A stretch of 58,158 nucleotides of DNA, taken from positions 1-58,158 of the forward strand of contig PEAN01000022.1 in NCBI GenBank assembly GCA_002753735.1. Reading direction: 5' to 3'. The notes under the pieces are model-generated. The model was not told the origin of the DNA. It was given only the letters and a program-made list of their open reading frames with translations, and ran no database searches. Positions 28,011 through 51,602 of this stretch are shown in pieces. Position numbers and translations under genes: made by a program. The stretch comes from Magnetococcales bacterium DCbin4 (GTDB lineage Bacteria > Pseudomonadota > Magnetococcia > Magnetococcales > UBA8363). Within the stretch, counting starts at the first letter, position 1. Each line of letters begins with the position of its first letter.

Positions 28011-29492
28011 GATCAATTGTAAGAACACCTGATCGATCACGGCATCCCAGTCGCCGATCCGGGGTTGGCGAAAGGGACGAACGGAAGGATACCATGGACA
28101 ATCATCCCCCTCGGCACCCCAACGCCAGTCCGGAACCTTGGGGAGAAGCACCCAGGCGGGATGATTCATGGCCCCGGCCAGATGGATGACGGCACTGTCC
28201 ACGGCGATCACCAGATCGAGTTGCGCAATGATTGCAGCGGTGACGGCAAAATCATCGAGCCGGGAACCCGGGTCAATCCACCGATGACAACCGGCGAACG
28301 CCGCCAGATCGCTGGCAGACGGATGTTTTTGCAACCCGATGAAGGTACACCCCTCCAACGTCCATAATCGGGAAAATCGATGGGGATCGATGGAGCGGTT
28401 GCGATCATTTTTATGCTTGGGATTGCCACGCCAGGACAGGCCCACTTTGAGATGAAACGGGGGAATGGATTGCTGCTGAAAAAAAGGGGGACATCGAGCA
28501 TCCATCTTCAGATAGGGTGTTGACCGGGGAAGGGTGGCACGGGTCATTCCCAGGAGATGGGGCAGACTCATGAGGGGCGCCTGAAGGTCACAGGGGGGAA
28601 GCGTCCCGGCGGTGGTGACCAGATGATCGATCCCGGGCATGGTGAGAAACAAGGTGTACAACGCCGGGGGACACTGGACGACGACGGTTCCTCCTTTTCG
28701 TTTCACCCACGGGACGAAACGGATGAATTGAATGCTGTCGCCAAAACCCTGTTCACAATGGAGCAGCAGGGTTTTCCCGGAAAAATCACCGCCGTCCCAA
28801 AGGGGTTGCGGATGACCGTGCGGATGGACCCCTTCGACCTGCCAACGCCATTCATGAAGCGGCCAGCCCGCCGCATCCTCCCCGAGGAGGAGCAGAATCA
28901 GACTTTCGGCCAGGGGGGCGTCCGGATCGGTGGGATCGAGTCCCCGGGCCTGACGCAACGATTGCAGGGCTTCGGTATAATGTCCCTGGGCTTGCAACGC
29001 CAGTCCCAGGTTGTACCAGGCGCGGGCGAAATGGGGATCAAGCTTGATGGCGGTACGGAAACACCCTTCCGCCTCGGCATACCGGTCTTGTTCCTGGAAG
29101 GTCGTCCCCAGATTGGCGTGGGCCTCGGGAAAGTCGGGTTGCAGTTGGAGTGCGTGTTGAAATGCGGCACGGGCCGCTTCGGGGTCGCCCAGTGCCATGA
29201 GGGCCAAACCACGGTTGGAAAGGGCAGAGGAATAGTGCGGCTTCAGGGTCAATGCCTGCTGGTAACACACGAGGGCGTCGGCAAGTCGTCCGAGCTGATG
29301 GCAGGCAATTCCCATCAGGTTGGCGGTCAGTTGGGGTTGATCGGAGCCGGGGGGAATCAGGGTCGTCGGGTTGCGGTCGGGAATGGAACGCAGGGCTTGC
29401 ATGAAGTGGCCGATGGCCTCGTTCATGGATCCTTGTTGTTGCAGGAGGATTCCCAGGCGGATATGTTCTTGGCATGATTGCGTCAAAATCAA
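27990..29492 (-). CDS. TPR protein with GT9-like glycosyltransferase domain
   Basis: This protein of about 500 residues has TPR repeats over its first 200 residues (EAHANLGTTFQEQDRYAEAEG and similar). The C-terminal region resembles GT9 heptosyltransferases: LLHCEQGFGDSIQFIRF, VGLSWRGNPKHKNDRNRS, and LVIAVDSAVIHLAGAMNHPA. It is a paralogue of the proteins at 29657 and 45651. Position beside the flagellar genes suggests flagellin or surface-polymer glycosylation; this is inference. There is no ATG: the first codons are TTG 29492 or 29486, at the edge of a repeat copy. The last residues (KKKKGA) and the stop are encoded by another repeat copy. Either end may have been altered by repeat insertion. 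Confidence 0.8.
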   Translation of the reverse strand: MILTQSCQEHIRLGILLQQQGSMNEAIGHFMQALRSIPDRNPTTLIPPGSDQPQLTANLMGIACHQLGRLADALVCYQQALTLKPHYSSALSNRGLALMALGDPEAARAAFQHALQLQPDFPEAHANLGTTFQEQDRYAEAEGCFRTAIKLDPHFARAWYNLGLALQAQGHYTEALQSLRQARGLDPTDPDAPLAESLILLLLGEDAAGWPLHEWRWQVEGVHPHGHPQPLWDGGDFSGKTLLLHCEQGFGDSIQFIRFVPWVKRKGGTVVVQCPPALYTLFLTMPGIDHLVTTAGTLPPCDLQAPLMSLPHLLGMTRATLPRSTPYLKMDARCPPFFQQQSIPPFHLKVGLSWRGNPKHKNDRNRSIDPHRFSRLWTLEGCTFIGLQKHPSASDLAAFAGCHRWIDPGSRLDDFAVTAAIIAQLDLVIAVDSAVIHLAGAMNHPAWVLLPKVPDWRWGAEGDDCPWYPSVRPFRQPRIGDWDAVIDQVFLQLIKKKKGA

Positions 29493-29525
29493 AACCCTGG
29501 GGGCAATCCCCCAGACCCCTTTTTT
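29491..29525 (+). repeat. Half copy of the dispersed repeat, terminator-like
   Basis: CTGGGGG and CCCCCAG form a perfect 7-bp stem around CAAT, followed by ACCCC and a T-run on the plus strand. The copy abuts the 5' end of the minus-strand TPR-glycosyltransferase gene. Confidence 0.65.
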
Positions 29526-29567
29526 ATTTTAATATTTTTATATATATCAATAAATTGACAAATCAAC

Positions 29568-29654
29568 GAATGTGACAAAGCAGAATTAATATTTTTATGC
29601 GTGTCCGTCAATCGCCAGCCATCCCCTCCAGTTAATGAATGTGACAGGGTAGAA
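29568..29654 (+). repeat. Two left-hand copies of a 23-bp repeat
   Basis: GAATGTGACAAAGCAGAA at 29568 and GAATGTGACAGGGTAGAA at 29637 are near copies of one unit. It recurs inverted in two exact tandem copies at 31575-31620, so the copies flank the TPR-glycosyltransferase gene. The second left copy ends two bases before the start codon. Confidence 0.75.
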
Positions 29655-29656
29655 CC

Positions 29657-31579
29657 ATGAGCAGACCGTTGAAAAGGAGAAATAAACCAAACCGATCCTC
29701 ACTGCTGGAGCAGGCATGGAACCATCTGACCGCGGGACGGTGGGACGAAGCGGAACAACACTACCGCAACCTTCTCGCCCAAACCCCCCAAGACCCTGAC
29801 CTTCTCCACTTCATGGGCATCATCGCCCATCAACGAGGACAACTGGAACAGGCCGTCATGTGGATTTCCAGAGCGGTGGCCATTCACCCCGGCTTTGCCG
29901 AAGCCCATAACAACCTGGGCCTCGCCCTGGAAGGATTGCAACGGTGGCAGGAAGCCGCGTCAAGCCATCGCCGGGCACTGACCCTGCAACCCCGTCTGGC
30001 CGCAAGCCATAACAACCTGGGCAACGTATTACGCCAACAGGGAAAACCTGGAGAAGCCATTGCCTGTTTCCACCAGGCGCTCACCCTCCAACCCGATTAT
30101 TTCCAGGCATACAACAATCTGGGCAACGCCCATGCCGATCTGGGCCAATGGGATGAAGCCATCGCCTGTTATCAAAAGGCGCTCACCCTGCATCCCCACT
30201 TCACCGAAGCCCGCCACAACCTGGAGCGAACGCTCAACCACAAAGGACTGCTCGCCCTCGAACAACGACACTGGCACGAAGCCGCCACCTGCTTTGAAAC
30301 GATGCTCCACAGCCAGCCGGGACATGTGGAGGCATTGTCCCATCTGGGGATCATCTATCAGGAGTTGGGCCGATTGGAAGAGGCGGTCGCCTGCCTGCAA
30401 CAGGTGGCGCAGCGACGGCCAAACCTTGCGGCCACCTACAGCCATTGGGGATTGGCGTTGCAAAAGATGGGACAACATACCCTGGCGGCGGAACAAATGG
30501 AACATGCCCTGAGGATCGATCCCAACGATTGTGGCACCTTGACCAATCTGGGCTTCGTCCGACAGGAACAGGGTGATGTGGCGACCGCCCTGGCGTTATA
30601 CCATCGGGCGTTGGCGCTCGATCCCCAATTTGCCGAAGCGCATTTCGGCAAAGGATTGGCGCATCTGCTCCTGGGTGAATTCACCACCGGCTGGCAACAC
30701 TATGAATGGCGTTGGAAAAAATGGGATTTCACCCCTCATGGTCGTCCCGAACCCTTGTGGGACGGCAAAGATCTCCAGGGGGAGACCCTTTTAATCCATT
30801 GCGAACAGGGATTCGGCGACAGTTTGCAATTCATCCGTCTGGCTGCGTTGGTCCGTCAACGGGGTGCCCGGGTGGCTGTTCTATGTCCCCAACCTTTGGA
30901 AGCATTGTTTCGCAGCCTGAAGGGAATCGATTTTCTTGCCAGTCGCCCCGAAGCGCTTCCCCGGTGCGCATGCCAAATCCCATTGTTGAGCCTTGCGGGT
31001 GTGTTGCAGGTCGATCCGGCAACCCTGGTGACCGACATGCCCTATCTCCATGCTGACCCGGTTCGTCAACAGCGGTTCTTGGATATCGGCCAAAGAAAAG
31101 GATTCAAGGTGGGCCTGGTCTGGCGGGGTCATCGTGGACACAAGAATGACCGCAATCGTTCCATTGCCCTGCACCGTCTGGCCCCGCTGTTCGCGGTCAC
31201 GGGGTGTCTATTTTTCAGTGTGCAGAAGGATCCCGAGCCGAATGAACGGGCGTTGCTTGCGGGGCGGGACAACGTCCATGATCTGAGTGACCGGCTGGTT
31301 GATTTTGCCGATACGGCGGCGGTGTTGATGATGATGGATCGGATCATTGCGGTTGATACTGCCGTGCTGCATTTGGCGGGGGCGTTGGGGCGACCTGCAT
31401 GGGGGATGTTACCGTTCGTTCCCGACTGGCGCTGGTTGCTTTTTCGTGATGACAGCCCGTGGTATCCGACGGTGCGTTTGTTTCGGCAACGGCAATCAGG
31501 GGATTGGGATGGGGTGATCACGCGGATCAGGGAGGCGTTGGCGCAATCAGAGGGAGGGTCTGTTGGCATTCATGATTAA
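29657..31579 (+). CDS. TPR protein with GT9-like glycosyltransferase domain
   Basis: This 640-residue protein has about nine TPR units in residues 12-340 (for example AHNNLGLALEGLQRWQEAAS and YNNLGNAHADLGQWDEAIAC). The GT9-like domain shows LLIHCEQGFGDSLQFIRL near 377-394, VGLVWRGHRGHKNDRNRS, and IIAVDTAVLHLAGALGRPAW. TPR arrays of this kind usually recognise protein acceptors, so glycosylation of a protein such as flagellin is plausible but unproven. The gene is divergent from its paralogue at 27990 and lies exactly between inverted 23-bp repeats; the stop codon is inside the right-hand repeat. Confidence 0.85.
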   Translation: MSRPLKRRNKPNRSSLLEQAWNHLTAGRWDEAEQHYRNLLAQTPQDPDLLHFMGIIAHQRGQLEQAVMWISRAVAIHPGFAEAHNNLGLALEGLQRWQEAASSHRRALTLQPRLAASHNNLGNVLRQQGKPGEAIACFHQALTLQPDYFQAYNNLGNAHADLGQWDEAIACYQKALTLHPHFTEARHNLERTLNHKGLLALEQRHWHEAATCFETMLHSQPGHVEALSHLGIIYQELGRLEEAVACLQQVAQRRPNLAATYSHWGLALQKMGQHTLAAEQMEHALRIDPNDCGTLTNLGFVRQEQGDVATALALYHRALALDPQFAEAHFGKGLAHLLLGEFTTGWQHYEWRWKKWDFTPHGRPEPLWDGKDLQGETLLIHCEQGFGDSLQFIRLAALVRQRGARVAVLCPQPLEALFRSLKGIDFLASRPEALPRCACQIPLLSLAGVLQVDPATLVTDMPYLHADPVRQQRFLDIGQRKGFKVGLVWRGHRGHKNDRNRSIALHRLAPLFAVTGCLFFSVQKDPEPNERALLAGRDNVHDLSDRLVDFADTAAVLMMMDRIIAVDTAVLHLAGALGRPAWGMLPFVPDWRWLLFRDDSPWYPTVRLFRQRQSGDWDGVITRIREALAQSEGGSVGIHD

Positions 31580-31626
31580 TTCTACTTTGTCACATTCATT
31601 AATTCTACTTTGTCACATTCATTAAT
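31575..31626 (+). repeat. Tandem right-hand copies of the 23-bp repeat
   Basis: Two identical 23-base units (31575-31597 and 31598-31620) plus six bases of a third. The unit contains TACTTTGTCACATTC and is the inverse complement of the copies at 29568 and 29637. It adjoins the IS4-like transposase remnant. Confidence 0.9.
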
Positions 31627-31678
31627 CAGGGATTATTGACACTCAAAAAATCATTCTTGTCGCGGAGCGGGCGCCCGT

Positions 31679-32210
31679 GTGATCGTGGAAAGGATTGAAC
31701 AAGGCAAGTCGCCATGTTCTCCTGGAACCGGTGCATACCGTCAGGCACGCCAGAGGCTACCGATTGAGTTGATATTACAACTATTACGCGCAGTTGAGGC
31801 CAAACTGCACAGAGATACCCCATCCTGTTGGCTGTGGAAGGGGCGCAGGGTTATGGTGGCCGATGGCACGACGGTATCGATGCCTGACACACCTGAAAAC
31901 CAAGTTGATTTTCCTCAACCGGTCTGCCAGAAGCCGGGGCTTGGATTTCCTCTGGCACGCTTGGTAGTCTTGATTTCGTTGGCTACTGGAGCCGTTTAGG
32001 ATATGGCCGTGGGACCAGGTCAGGGGAAGGCAACCGGAAATGGGTTCATCTCATGGATCAAATGCTGCGAGCCATTGCCTACCATCGAATTGGCAACCGC
32101 TCTGGGCGGGCAGAACCACGCGCAGTACAACGTCGTCCAAAGGGATACCGCCGACTGGGTCAACCGCGAGATGTGGCCAGATTGTCCCTGAAGAAGCATG
32201 ATGTTACGGC
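31679..32210 (+). pseudogene. IS4-family transposase remnant
   Basis: The translated pieces GRRVMVADGTTVSMPDTPENQ and QKPGLGFPLARLVVLISLATGAV are the hallmark DDE region of IS4-type transposases. A TAG at 31997 interrupts the frame right after ATGAV. Downstream in the same frame (from 32003) the similarity continues weakly (DMAVGPGQGKATGNGF, then DTADWVNREMW) with an apparent internal deletion. Both protein ends are missing. It is inactive debris of an insertion sequence. Confidence 0.85.
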
Positions 32211-32234
32211 TATCTAAGCGCCATTGGGTTAAAC

Positions 32235-32357
32235 ATGGGCTACGCCTACCTCCGCAAAGTTTTCAGTGCGATTCCCAATGCAACCACGGTGGAAGAGTTT
32301 GCAGCCCTCCTTCCCTGGAACTGCAAAAATTCAGAAAAAAGCAAGTCACTTTGCTGA
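32235..32357 (+). pseudogene. IS66-family transposase C-terminal fragment
   Basis: A 40-codon fragment reads GYAYLRKVFSAIPNATTVEE, then FAALLPWNC. This matches the conserved C-terminus of IS66 transposases, which typically end near LLPWN. The rest of the element is missing. Its right edge, near 32380, coincides with the point where the minus-strand hsdR fragment breaks off, so this insertion or a later deletion truncated hsdR. Confidence 0.75.
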
Positions 32358-32381
32358 TAGGGTTCGTTCGGCGCTTACCGT

Positions 32382-33902: not shown

Positions 33903-35042
33903 TCATTTTTCGGCTTGGAAGATATCCAGGTAGGGCCGGAACCGGAACAAGCGGTTCCTCTGGAAACCGGTGACCTCCTCCAGCAATTGCAGCTCGCCGA
34001 GTGCCGCCACCAGTTGGTTGGCGGCCTGGTATTGGAGTCCCAATTCGGACGCCACTTGTCCGACGTTGACCACCGGACGTCGGTAAAGGAATTGAATCAA
34101 TCGCCGCCCGTTCTCCGCTCGCCGTCCCAGGGTGACGATGCGGCTGTCGATCTCCTGGCGCAGGACCAGCAGTTGGCGGAAGGTCTCCTTGCCTTTCTCG
34201 GCGGTCTCCTCCACGGCCTGGAGGAAGAAGCGGCACCAGTGGCCGATATCGTTGGATTCCCGCACCCGGGTCAGGGCGTCGAAATAGGCACCCCGATGTT
34301 TTTCCAGGTGGGCGGAGAGGTAGAGGGAGGGTTTGGCCAACAGTCCGTGGCTGATCAGATAGAGGGTGATGAGCAGGCGACCGATGCGGCCATTGCCATC
34401 GAGGAACGGATGGATGGTCTCGAACTGGTAATGGGAAAGGGCGCAACGGATGAGGTGGGGCACCTGGATGGCGTCGTTGTGCCAGAAGGCTTCCAGGTCG
34501 CTTAAGCATTCGGGCAGGTCGTCGTGGTGGGGCGGGATGAAAGCGGCGTCGGCCAGGGTGGCCCCGCCGACCCAGTTCTGACTGCGGCGGAACTCGCCCG
34601 GCGTTTTCCGCTCGCCACGCACCCCCTGCATGAGGGTGGCGTGGGTCTGTTTCAACAGACGTAGCGAAAGGGGCAGCTCGCGCAGACTGGCAATGGCCTC
34701 GTTCATGGCGCGGACGTAGTTTTGCACCTCGCGCCAGTCGTTGCGCCGTTCCGGCAGAATCTCCTCCTCCTCCAGCACCGCCTCGTCCATCTCAGTGCGG
34801 GTACCCTCGATGCGACTGGATAGGTTGGCCTCCTTGAGAACGTGCATTTGCAGGTACAGGTCCACCTCGGGCACGATCAGGGTGAAGGCGTTCAATTCGC
34901 CCAACGCCTTGGACGCCCGCTCCAACAACGTGCCGATGCGCGGGTCGTCCCAGGACCACTCCTGGTTGATGGGCGCGGGGTGGAAGCTCTTGTACTGGTA
35001 CTGCTGACAGAGCTTGCCGGATTGGAATGCCTCGAATTTCAT
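33903..35042 (-). CDS. fic: Fic family protein with built-in inhibitory motif
   Basis: This 379-residue Fic protein carries the full active motif HPFLDGNGRIGR near residues 201-212 and, before the Fic core, SSRIEGT, which fits the inhibitory (S/T)xxxE(G/N) helix of class II Fic proteins. A winged-helix-like tail ends the protein (VGQVASELGLQYQAANQLV). Fic enzymes usually transfer AMP to protein hydroxyls. Fic genes often sit inside type I restriction operons, and this one lies next to restriction debris. It appears intact. The ATG at 35042 is preferred; the upstream extension is proline-rich and unlike Fic proteins. Confidence 0.9.
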   Translation of the reverse strand: MKFEAFQSGKLCQQYQYKSFHPAPINQEWSWDDPRIGTLLERASKALGELNAFTLIVPEVDLYLQMHVLKEANLSSRIEGTRTEMDEAVLEEEEILPERRNDWREVQNYVRAMNEAIASLRELPLSLRLLKQTHATLMQGVRGERKTPGEFRRSQNWVGGATLADAAFIPPHHDDLPECLSDLEAFWHNDAIQVPHLIRCALSHYQFETIHPFLDGNGRIGRLLITLYLISHGLLAKPSLYLSAHLEKHRGAYFDALTRVRESNDIGHWCRFFLQAVEETAEKGKETFRQLLVLRQEIDSRIVTLGRRAENGRRLIQFLYRRPVVNVGQVASELGLQYQAANQLVAALGELQLLEEVTGFQRNRLFRFRPYLDIFQAEK

Positions 35043-35121
35043 GGTTCCGACCGGTTGCGGAGGGAGGGGGCGTTGCGGGGGATGCCCTGGGCCACCTGGT
35101 TGGAGAGGGTGTGTGGGGCCA

Positions 35122-35146
35122 TCTGTTCGACGGCGTTTTCTTCGTG
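35122..35146 (-). repeat. Short duplicate of the hsdR 5' end
   Basis: This 25-base stretch matches 32783-32807, near the start of hsdR, with two differences. On the minus strand it encodes EENAVEQM where hsdR has EENTVEQM. It suggests a second remnant of an HsdR-like 5' end upstream of fic. Confidence 0.5.
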
Positions 35147-35253
35147 TGCTCCTCCCACATGCCAATTCCGCAAAGAACGACAAACCTGAAGAGATTCCTC
35201 AATATGTCTGGACACCCCATCAACTTGCATTCTGAACCCTTCGAGAATCTTCA

Positions 35254-51528: not shown

Positions 51529-51602
51529 ACCTGTTTGTTCATGGCTCTTCTCGCGTTAAATGTGGGTGAACACATCGTTTTACTGCAATATGATGATTTT
51601 GA

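Follow-up and report, generated by a model that had tools for sequence, protein, structure and literature searches.

The gene and its repeats

How does a gene come to lie between inverted repeats in so exact a fit that its start codon stands two bases after one of them and its stop codon lies inside another? The locus is found in a Magnetococcales draft genome of 4.52 Mb in 148 contigs, and the window analysed here is contig C127, a stretch of 58,158 nucleotides. The gene (29657..31579, plus strand) encodes a 640-aa TPR protein whose C-terminal part is glycosyltransferase-9-like. At the 3' end of the gene stand two exact tandem units of 23 bp, at 31575-31597 and 31598-31620, the first of which contains the TAA stop codon (31577-31579), and two near copies in reverse complement precede the gene, at 29561-29590 (90% over 30 nt) and at 29632-29654 (91% over 23 nt). 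Two bases separate the end of the latter, at position 29654, from the ATG at 29657. The positions of repeats, start and stop that an earlier note had given for this DNA were re-derived and confirmed, with an exact fit at both gene ends. Because the window holds three matches with at most three mismatches and 100 shuffled versions hold none, the repeats are not a product of chance.

We consider it very probable that the units are the terminal inverted repeats of high-copy, non-autonomous IS701-type MITEs, which are nested and truncated and face away from a resident glycosyltransferase gene. The pattern is real and its cause is ordinary in kind; the MITE family is new.

Element structure and the orientation of the ends

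Each of the 17 paired copies examined (11 from this genome and six from the related genomes G001 and G002) has two ends that face inward and enclose a sequence without a transposase gene, with a span of 48-509 bp, which is the structure of a MITE. Seven of our 11 copies measure 168-180 bp and the remaining four 72, 293, 353 and 509 bp. The ends are of two types, A (TCAGGGATTRTTGACACTC) and B (CTGGAGAGGATGGCTGGCAATTGACTGATAT), which are mostly joined via a G+C hairpin and occur in all of the combinations A-B, A-A and B-B; L028, one of the copies, forms a single hairpin when folded (z -4.85).

Around the gene the order is the reverse, with left ends that run leftward and right ends that run rightward, and the gene lies outside both elements. 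The same outward order was found at one other locus (L019), where it arises between two neighbouring elements. A search of the window at up to five mismatches revealed no other end, so the far end of each flanking element is missing.

The left side is a composite remnant (29482..29654, minus strand) made up of a B-type MITE end, a second end nested inside it and the G+C hairpin. The outer end (29632..29654, minus strand) has its interior to the left, differs from the 23-mer by two mismatches and stands before CC and then the ATG. The 4-mer on its outer side, ATGG, is not TA-centred, so that this end has no TA flank at 29654. The inner end (29563..29585, minus strand, three mismatches) has TTAA at its outer side (29586-29589), like a nested insertion. 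Next comes the unstranded G+C hairpin (29496..29515) that is common to the MITEs and whose motif is present in all eight genomes of the genus examined. The left remnant gives no support for an outward promoter: it has one promoter-like site, on the minus strand, against 0.8 expected.

On the right, a TTAA target (31576..31579, plus strand) holds the TAA stop codon of the gene. The first right end (31580..31602, plus strand) is an exact copy of the 23-mer with its interior to the right, and its positions 20-23 (31599-31602) read TTAA. Nested in it is a second end of A-type (31603..31655, plus strand), which includes about 30 bp of element interior and is cut off at ATCATT (31650-31655). Nesting of this kind recurs among the ends examined: eight of 99 are placed just within another one, three of the eight at a distance of exactly 23 bp and five of them preceded by TTAA, and the left pair in the window is counted among the nested ends. 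Because positions 20-23 of every end read TTAA, nesting there gives a tandem period of 23 bp. The exact fit between gene and repeats is thus likely to have simple causes, namely a stop codon TAA within a TTAA target and nesting at the TTAA of each end.

As a separate observation, another TPR-glycosyltransferase-like frame ends exactly at an element at G000:C117:62340-62396 (L064, L138), where a double end is spaced 34 bp apart.

A resident gene with orthologs in the genus

The genome contains 58 stretches that match the TPR-glycosyltransferase-type protein of the window gene. Over its full length, the protein in the window aligns to orthologs in G007, G006 and G004 with 60, 59 and 56% identity, respectively, and the best matches in G003, G005 and G002 have identities of 53, 53 and 49%. 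The best match in G001, at 44% identity, may be a paralog. Compared with the three aligned orthologs, the window protein is missing 61 contiguous residues after about residue 197, which correspond to about two TPR units. In G006, the divergent neighbour of the gene and its orientation are the same as in the window, and in G007 a contig break falls between the gene and this neighbour. At up to one mismatch, the 23-mer is absent from G003, G004 and G007 and occurs once in G006, on another contig, whereas in G005 a copy is located upstream of the gene's ortholog.

These comparisons bear on the most obvious interpretation of the locus, namely that a cassette or composite unit, delimited by the inverted repeats, could move or invert together with the gene. 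Near-identical inverted repeats on both sides and their exact fit to start and stop are what such a unit would show. However, a cassette has its gene on the inner side of its ends, and here the gene is on their outer side and the far ends are absent; moreover, G006 has the same neighbour in the same orientation on a contig without the 23-mer at up to one mismatch, and orthologs are present in G007, G004 and G003, all of which are genomes without it at this threshold. A cassette is therefore very unlikely, and the suggestion in the earlier note that the framing could allow inversion or movement of the gene finds no support in the outward-facing ends, the synteny with G006 or the dispersal of the repeat described below. 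The same note had offered an old IS passenger unit as an alternative. This was correct insofar as the repeats are IS-type ends, but the gene as a passenger is not supported, given that the element interiors point away from it, the far ends are absent and the gene has orthologs and, in G006, conserved synteny.

Elsewhere in the window, a frame on the minus strand (33903-35183) shares 94% protein identity with a frame in G001 and, over its last 45 residues, 96% with a sequence in G003, whereas nearby glycosyltransferases are far less similar across the genus. From these identities, a recent transfer of the frame is possible.

Copy number and spread of the repeat

A search of the whole genome with the 23-mer TTCTACTTTGTCACATTCATTAA at up to three mismatches gave 137 copies (65 forward and 72 reverse), and the control, the same pattern read backwards, gave none on either strand, so that the many dispersed copies expected of a MITE are at hand. 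The earlier note had asked for such a search and had named the occurrence of the repeats in many unrelated places as an outcome that would speak against its reading, which is the outcome obtained. Among the matches listed, at least 36 copies are found no more than 230 bases from the start of a contig, each of these 36 in minus-strand orientation. The same side of the element thus faces the break each time, as expected for a dispersed element that stops assembly, and many breaks in the assembly are probably due to the repeats of the MITE family.

At up to one mismatch, the 23-mer was present in five of the eight genomes of the genus, our own included, and in none of the 53 other genomes searched; the named records with the repeat are the Magnetococcales MAGs HA3dbin1 and nHA5abin3. 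The hairpin motif GGGGGATTGCCCCCAG has 176 exact copies in our genome and is found in all eight genomes of the genus, including the three without the 23-mer, and in none of the 53 others. The end pattern had no match in viral contigs, and a 125-nt element end had only three short matches of 26-27 bases in plasmids, which we take to be chance. The MITE family is apparently restricted to the genus. We found no such IS701-type MITE family in the literature searched (on MITEs in Magnetococcales or Magnetococcus and on IS701 MITEs), and a literature search with the 18-mer TTCTACTTTGTCACATTC gave no match.

A second repeat family, with ends GGCTCTTCNAGCGTTNRATGTGG, is represented in the window at 51543-51565 and at 35 other places in the genome (36 at up to two mismatches). 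It has a hairpin interior in common with the 23-mer MITEs, and several of its copies contain a TTCTAC-type end. Its own end may be ISL3-like. Empty sites were sought for this family (GGCTCTTC ends) at 30 loci, and none was clean.

The probable transposase partner

In G005 (HA3dbin1), the 23-mer adjoins one and the same 33-aa C-terminus of a transposase-like frame at 13 places, and 12 of the 15 ends read in this genome adjoin it. The other side of the G005 element, with a start codon, was seen at a contig end (L083), and the middle of the element was sought without success. When 398 genomes were searched with the 33-aa peptide, four matched, two of them outside the genus. There was no match in our own genome, so that the peptide search revealed no IS701 transposase there, nor was there any match in plasmids.

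One of the loci outside the genus, in a genome of the same phylum (L250 in G140), contains a complete element, about 1.5 kb long, in which perfect 17-bp ends TTCTACTTTGTCACATT at 78-94 and 1603-1619 flank a 477-aa frame. The frame is an IS701-family transposase (NF033540, 313.7 bits with a cut-off of 150; DDE_5, 180.9 bits), and the 17-bp ends are identical to the MITE ends of our genome, which argues for an IS701 origin of the latter. The protein matched 676 plasmid records, all at less than 60% identity, and had no match in viral contigs by tblastn; the two best plasmid relatives (Thiodictyon and Allochromatium) are annotated as IS701 and have ends that differ from the 17 bases by 2-3 mismatches. 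The IS701 family is described as having the end signature ---YACT-Y--YR and 4-bp direct repeats (PMC2266710). Our consensus fits this signature, as do the end at 31580 and the ends of L250, L264 and L265, whereas both left ends in the window depart from it, and we regard these as decayed.

Another candidate source lies next to the gene. A degraded IS4-family transposase remnant, which is a distinct element, is located at 31650..32227 on the plus strand, with 31650-32037 well supported and 32054-32227 likely to be its continuation. A homologous frame in G006 belongs to the IS4 family (NF033592, 211.5 bits with a cut-off of 115), and the adjoining IS4 remnant of the earlier note is thereby verified. 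That the 23-bp repeats are the ends of this element, as the note had proposed to check, might be suggested by the start of the remnant right behind the right repeats, but it is hardly credible: on contig C77 the same IS4 sequence extends leftward as transposase without any 23-mer, the IS4 part gave five other strong places in the genome search, in pieces, against 137 copies of the repeat, and the complete elements that bear such ends carry IS701 transposases. The sequence ATCATT (31650-31655) is common to the MITE and the IS4 piece, which suggests that a deletion may have joined the two at this microhomology. Adjoining the remnant at 32241-32378 is a dispersed repeat, a 138-bp stretch that is 93-99% identical to sequences in C89 of our own genome, C17 of G006 and C111 of G003.

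Target site and stop codons

TA was present at positions -3/-2 of 76 of the 97 distinct ends examined, with a background of 0.039, and TTAA directly preceded 40 of 99 ends in an enlarged set. Ten of the 17 complete copies have TA on both sides, and six have identical flanking 4-mers, all of which are TTAA. The flanking 4-mers are CTAC/GTAG in L250 and CTAG/CTAA in L264, and they are identical on both sides in L265. The target is TA-centred and mostly TTAA.

A preference for TA would also be in line with an element of the IS630/Tc1-mariner type with a 2-bp TA duplication, of which the pneumococcal RUP is an example (PMC2229807), and copies with TA on both sides (10 of 17) do outnumber those with identical 4-mers (six). 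We nevertheless regard a membership of the MITEs in this group as exceedingly improbable. PF13358 had no match in our own genome; it was found in five of the eight genomes of the genus, and nine such loci have no similar end at up to seven mismatches, whereas an end of the 23-mer type bounds an IS701 transposase.

At 45 of the 99 ends, a frame of at least 100 codons runs toward the element and stops within 60 bases. Twelve of these frames stop exactly at the target (eight with TAA, three with TAG and one with TGA), three at +23, two at +37 and one or two at each other offset seen. The frames were defined from stop to stop and several of them (for example those at L012, L148 and L158) may not be genes; the ortholog comparison among the frames that stop at the target covers the window gene. 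The excess at zero hints at a stop-codon preference, since random coding insertions would spread over 0, +23 and +37, and such a preference of the MITEs is suggestive only. A broader hypothesis would be that the elements favour stop codons, TAA or TAG in a TA-centred target, so that the frame stays closed, a strong hairpin is set behind the gene and the elements spread as portable 3' ends with little harm, which we think rather unlikely.

A proposed course of events

For the IS701-type MITEs, we envisage that an IS701 transposase moved the elements and that the left and the right pair each arose as a nested double insertion that was then truncated. The right insertion would have entered the TTAA that includes the stop codon of the gene, with the frame keeping its stop, and a second element would then have inserted at the TTAA that occupies positions 20-23 of the first, giving the 23-bp tandem. 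A deletion at ATCATT would have fused the right element to IS4 debris. On the left, the element end would have replaced the native leader of the gene and may supply its ribosome-binding site. A concrete mechanism thereby takes the place of the false lead of a framed, invertible gene, and an IS701-type MITE family is described that has more than 100 ends in a single genome from a magnetotactic lineage.

Comparison with known elements

The family resembles several dispersed elements of other bacteria. The Correia/NEMIS elements of Neisseria (PMC2229807) are also dispersed, with a length of 107-155 bp, 24-bp terminal repeats and TA at their termini, but they belong to an unrelated organism and are likened here by description rather than by sequence. 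RUP of Streptococcus pneumoniae (PMC2229807) is likewise short and exists in about 100 copies, and it has TA in its target and ends that resemble those of a full IS; it is 107 bp long and linked to IS630-Spn1, however, whereas a length of 168-180 bp is frequent among our elements and their link is to IS701. MITEPye1 of Paracoccus yeei (PMC11578231) is a MITE with full-IS-like ends and a long hairpin, but is linked to IS1182 and present in one to three copies per chromosome. The IS701 family itself (PMC2266710) differs in that our MITE copies lack a transposase, and the identical flanking 4-mers in six of 17 copies do not confirm the 4-bp duplication reported for IS701. The likeness lies in the terminal signature and in the identical 17-bp ends on a complete IS701 element.
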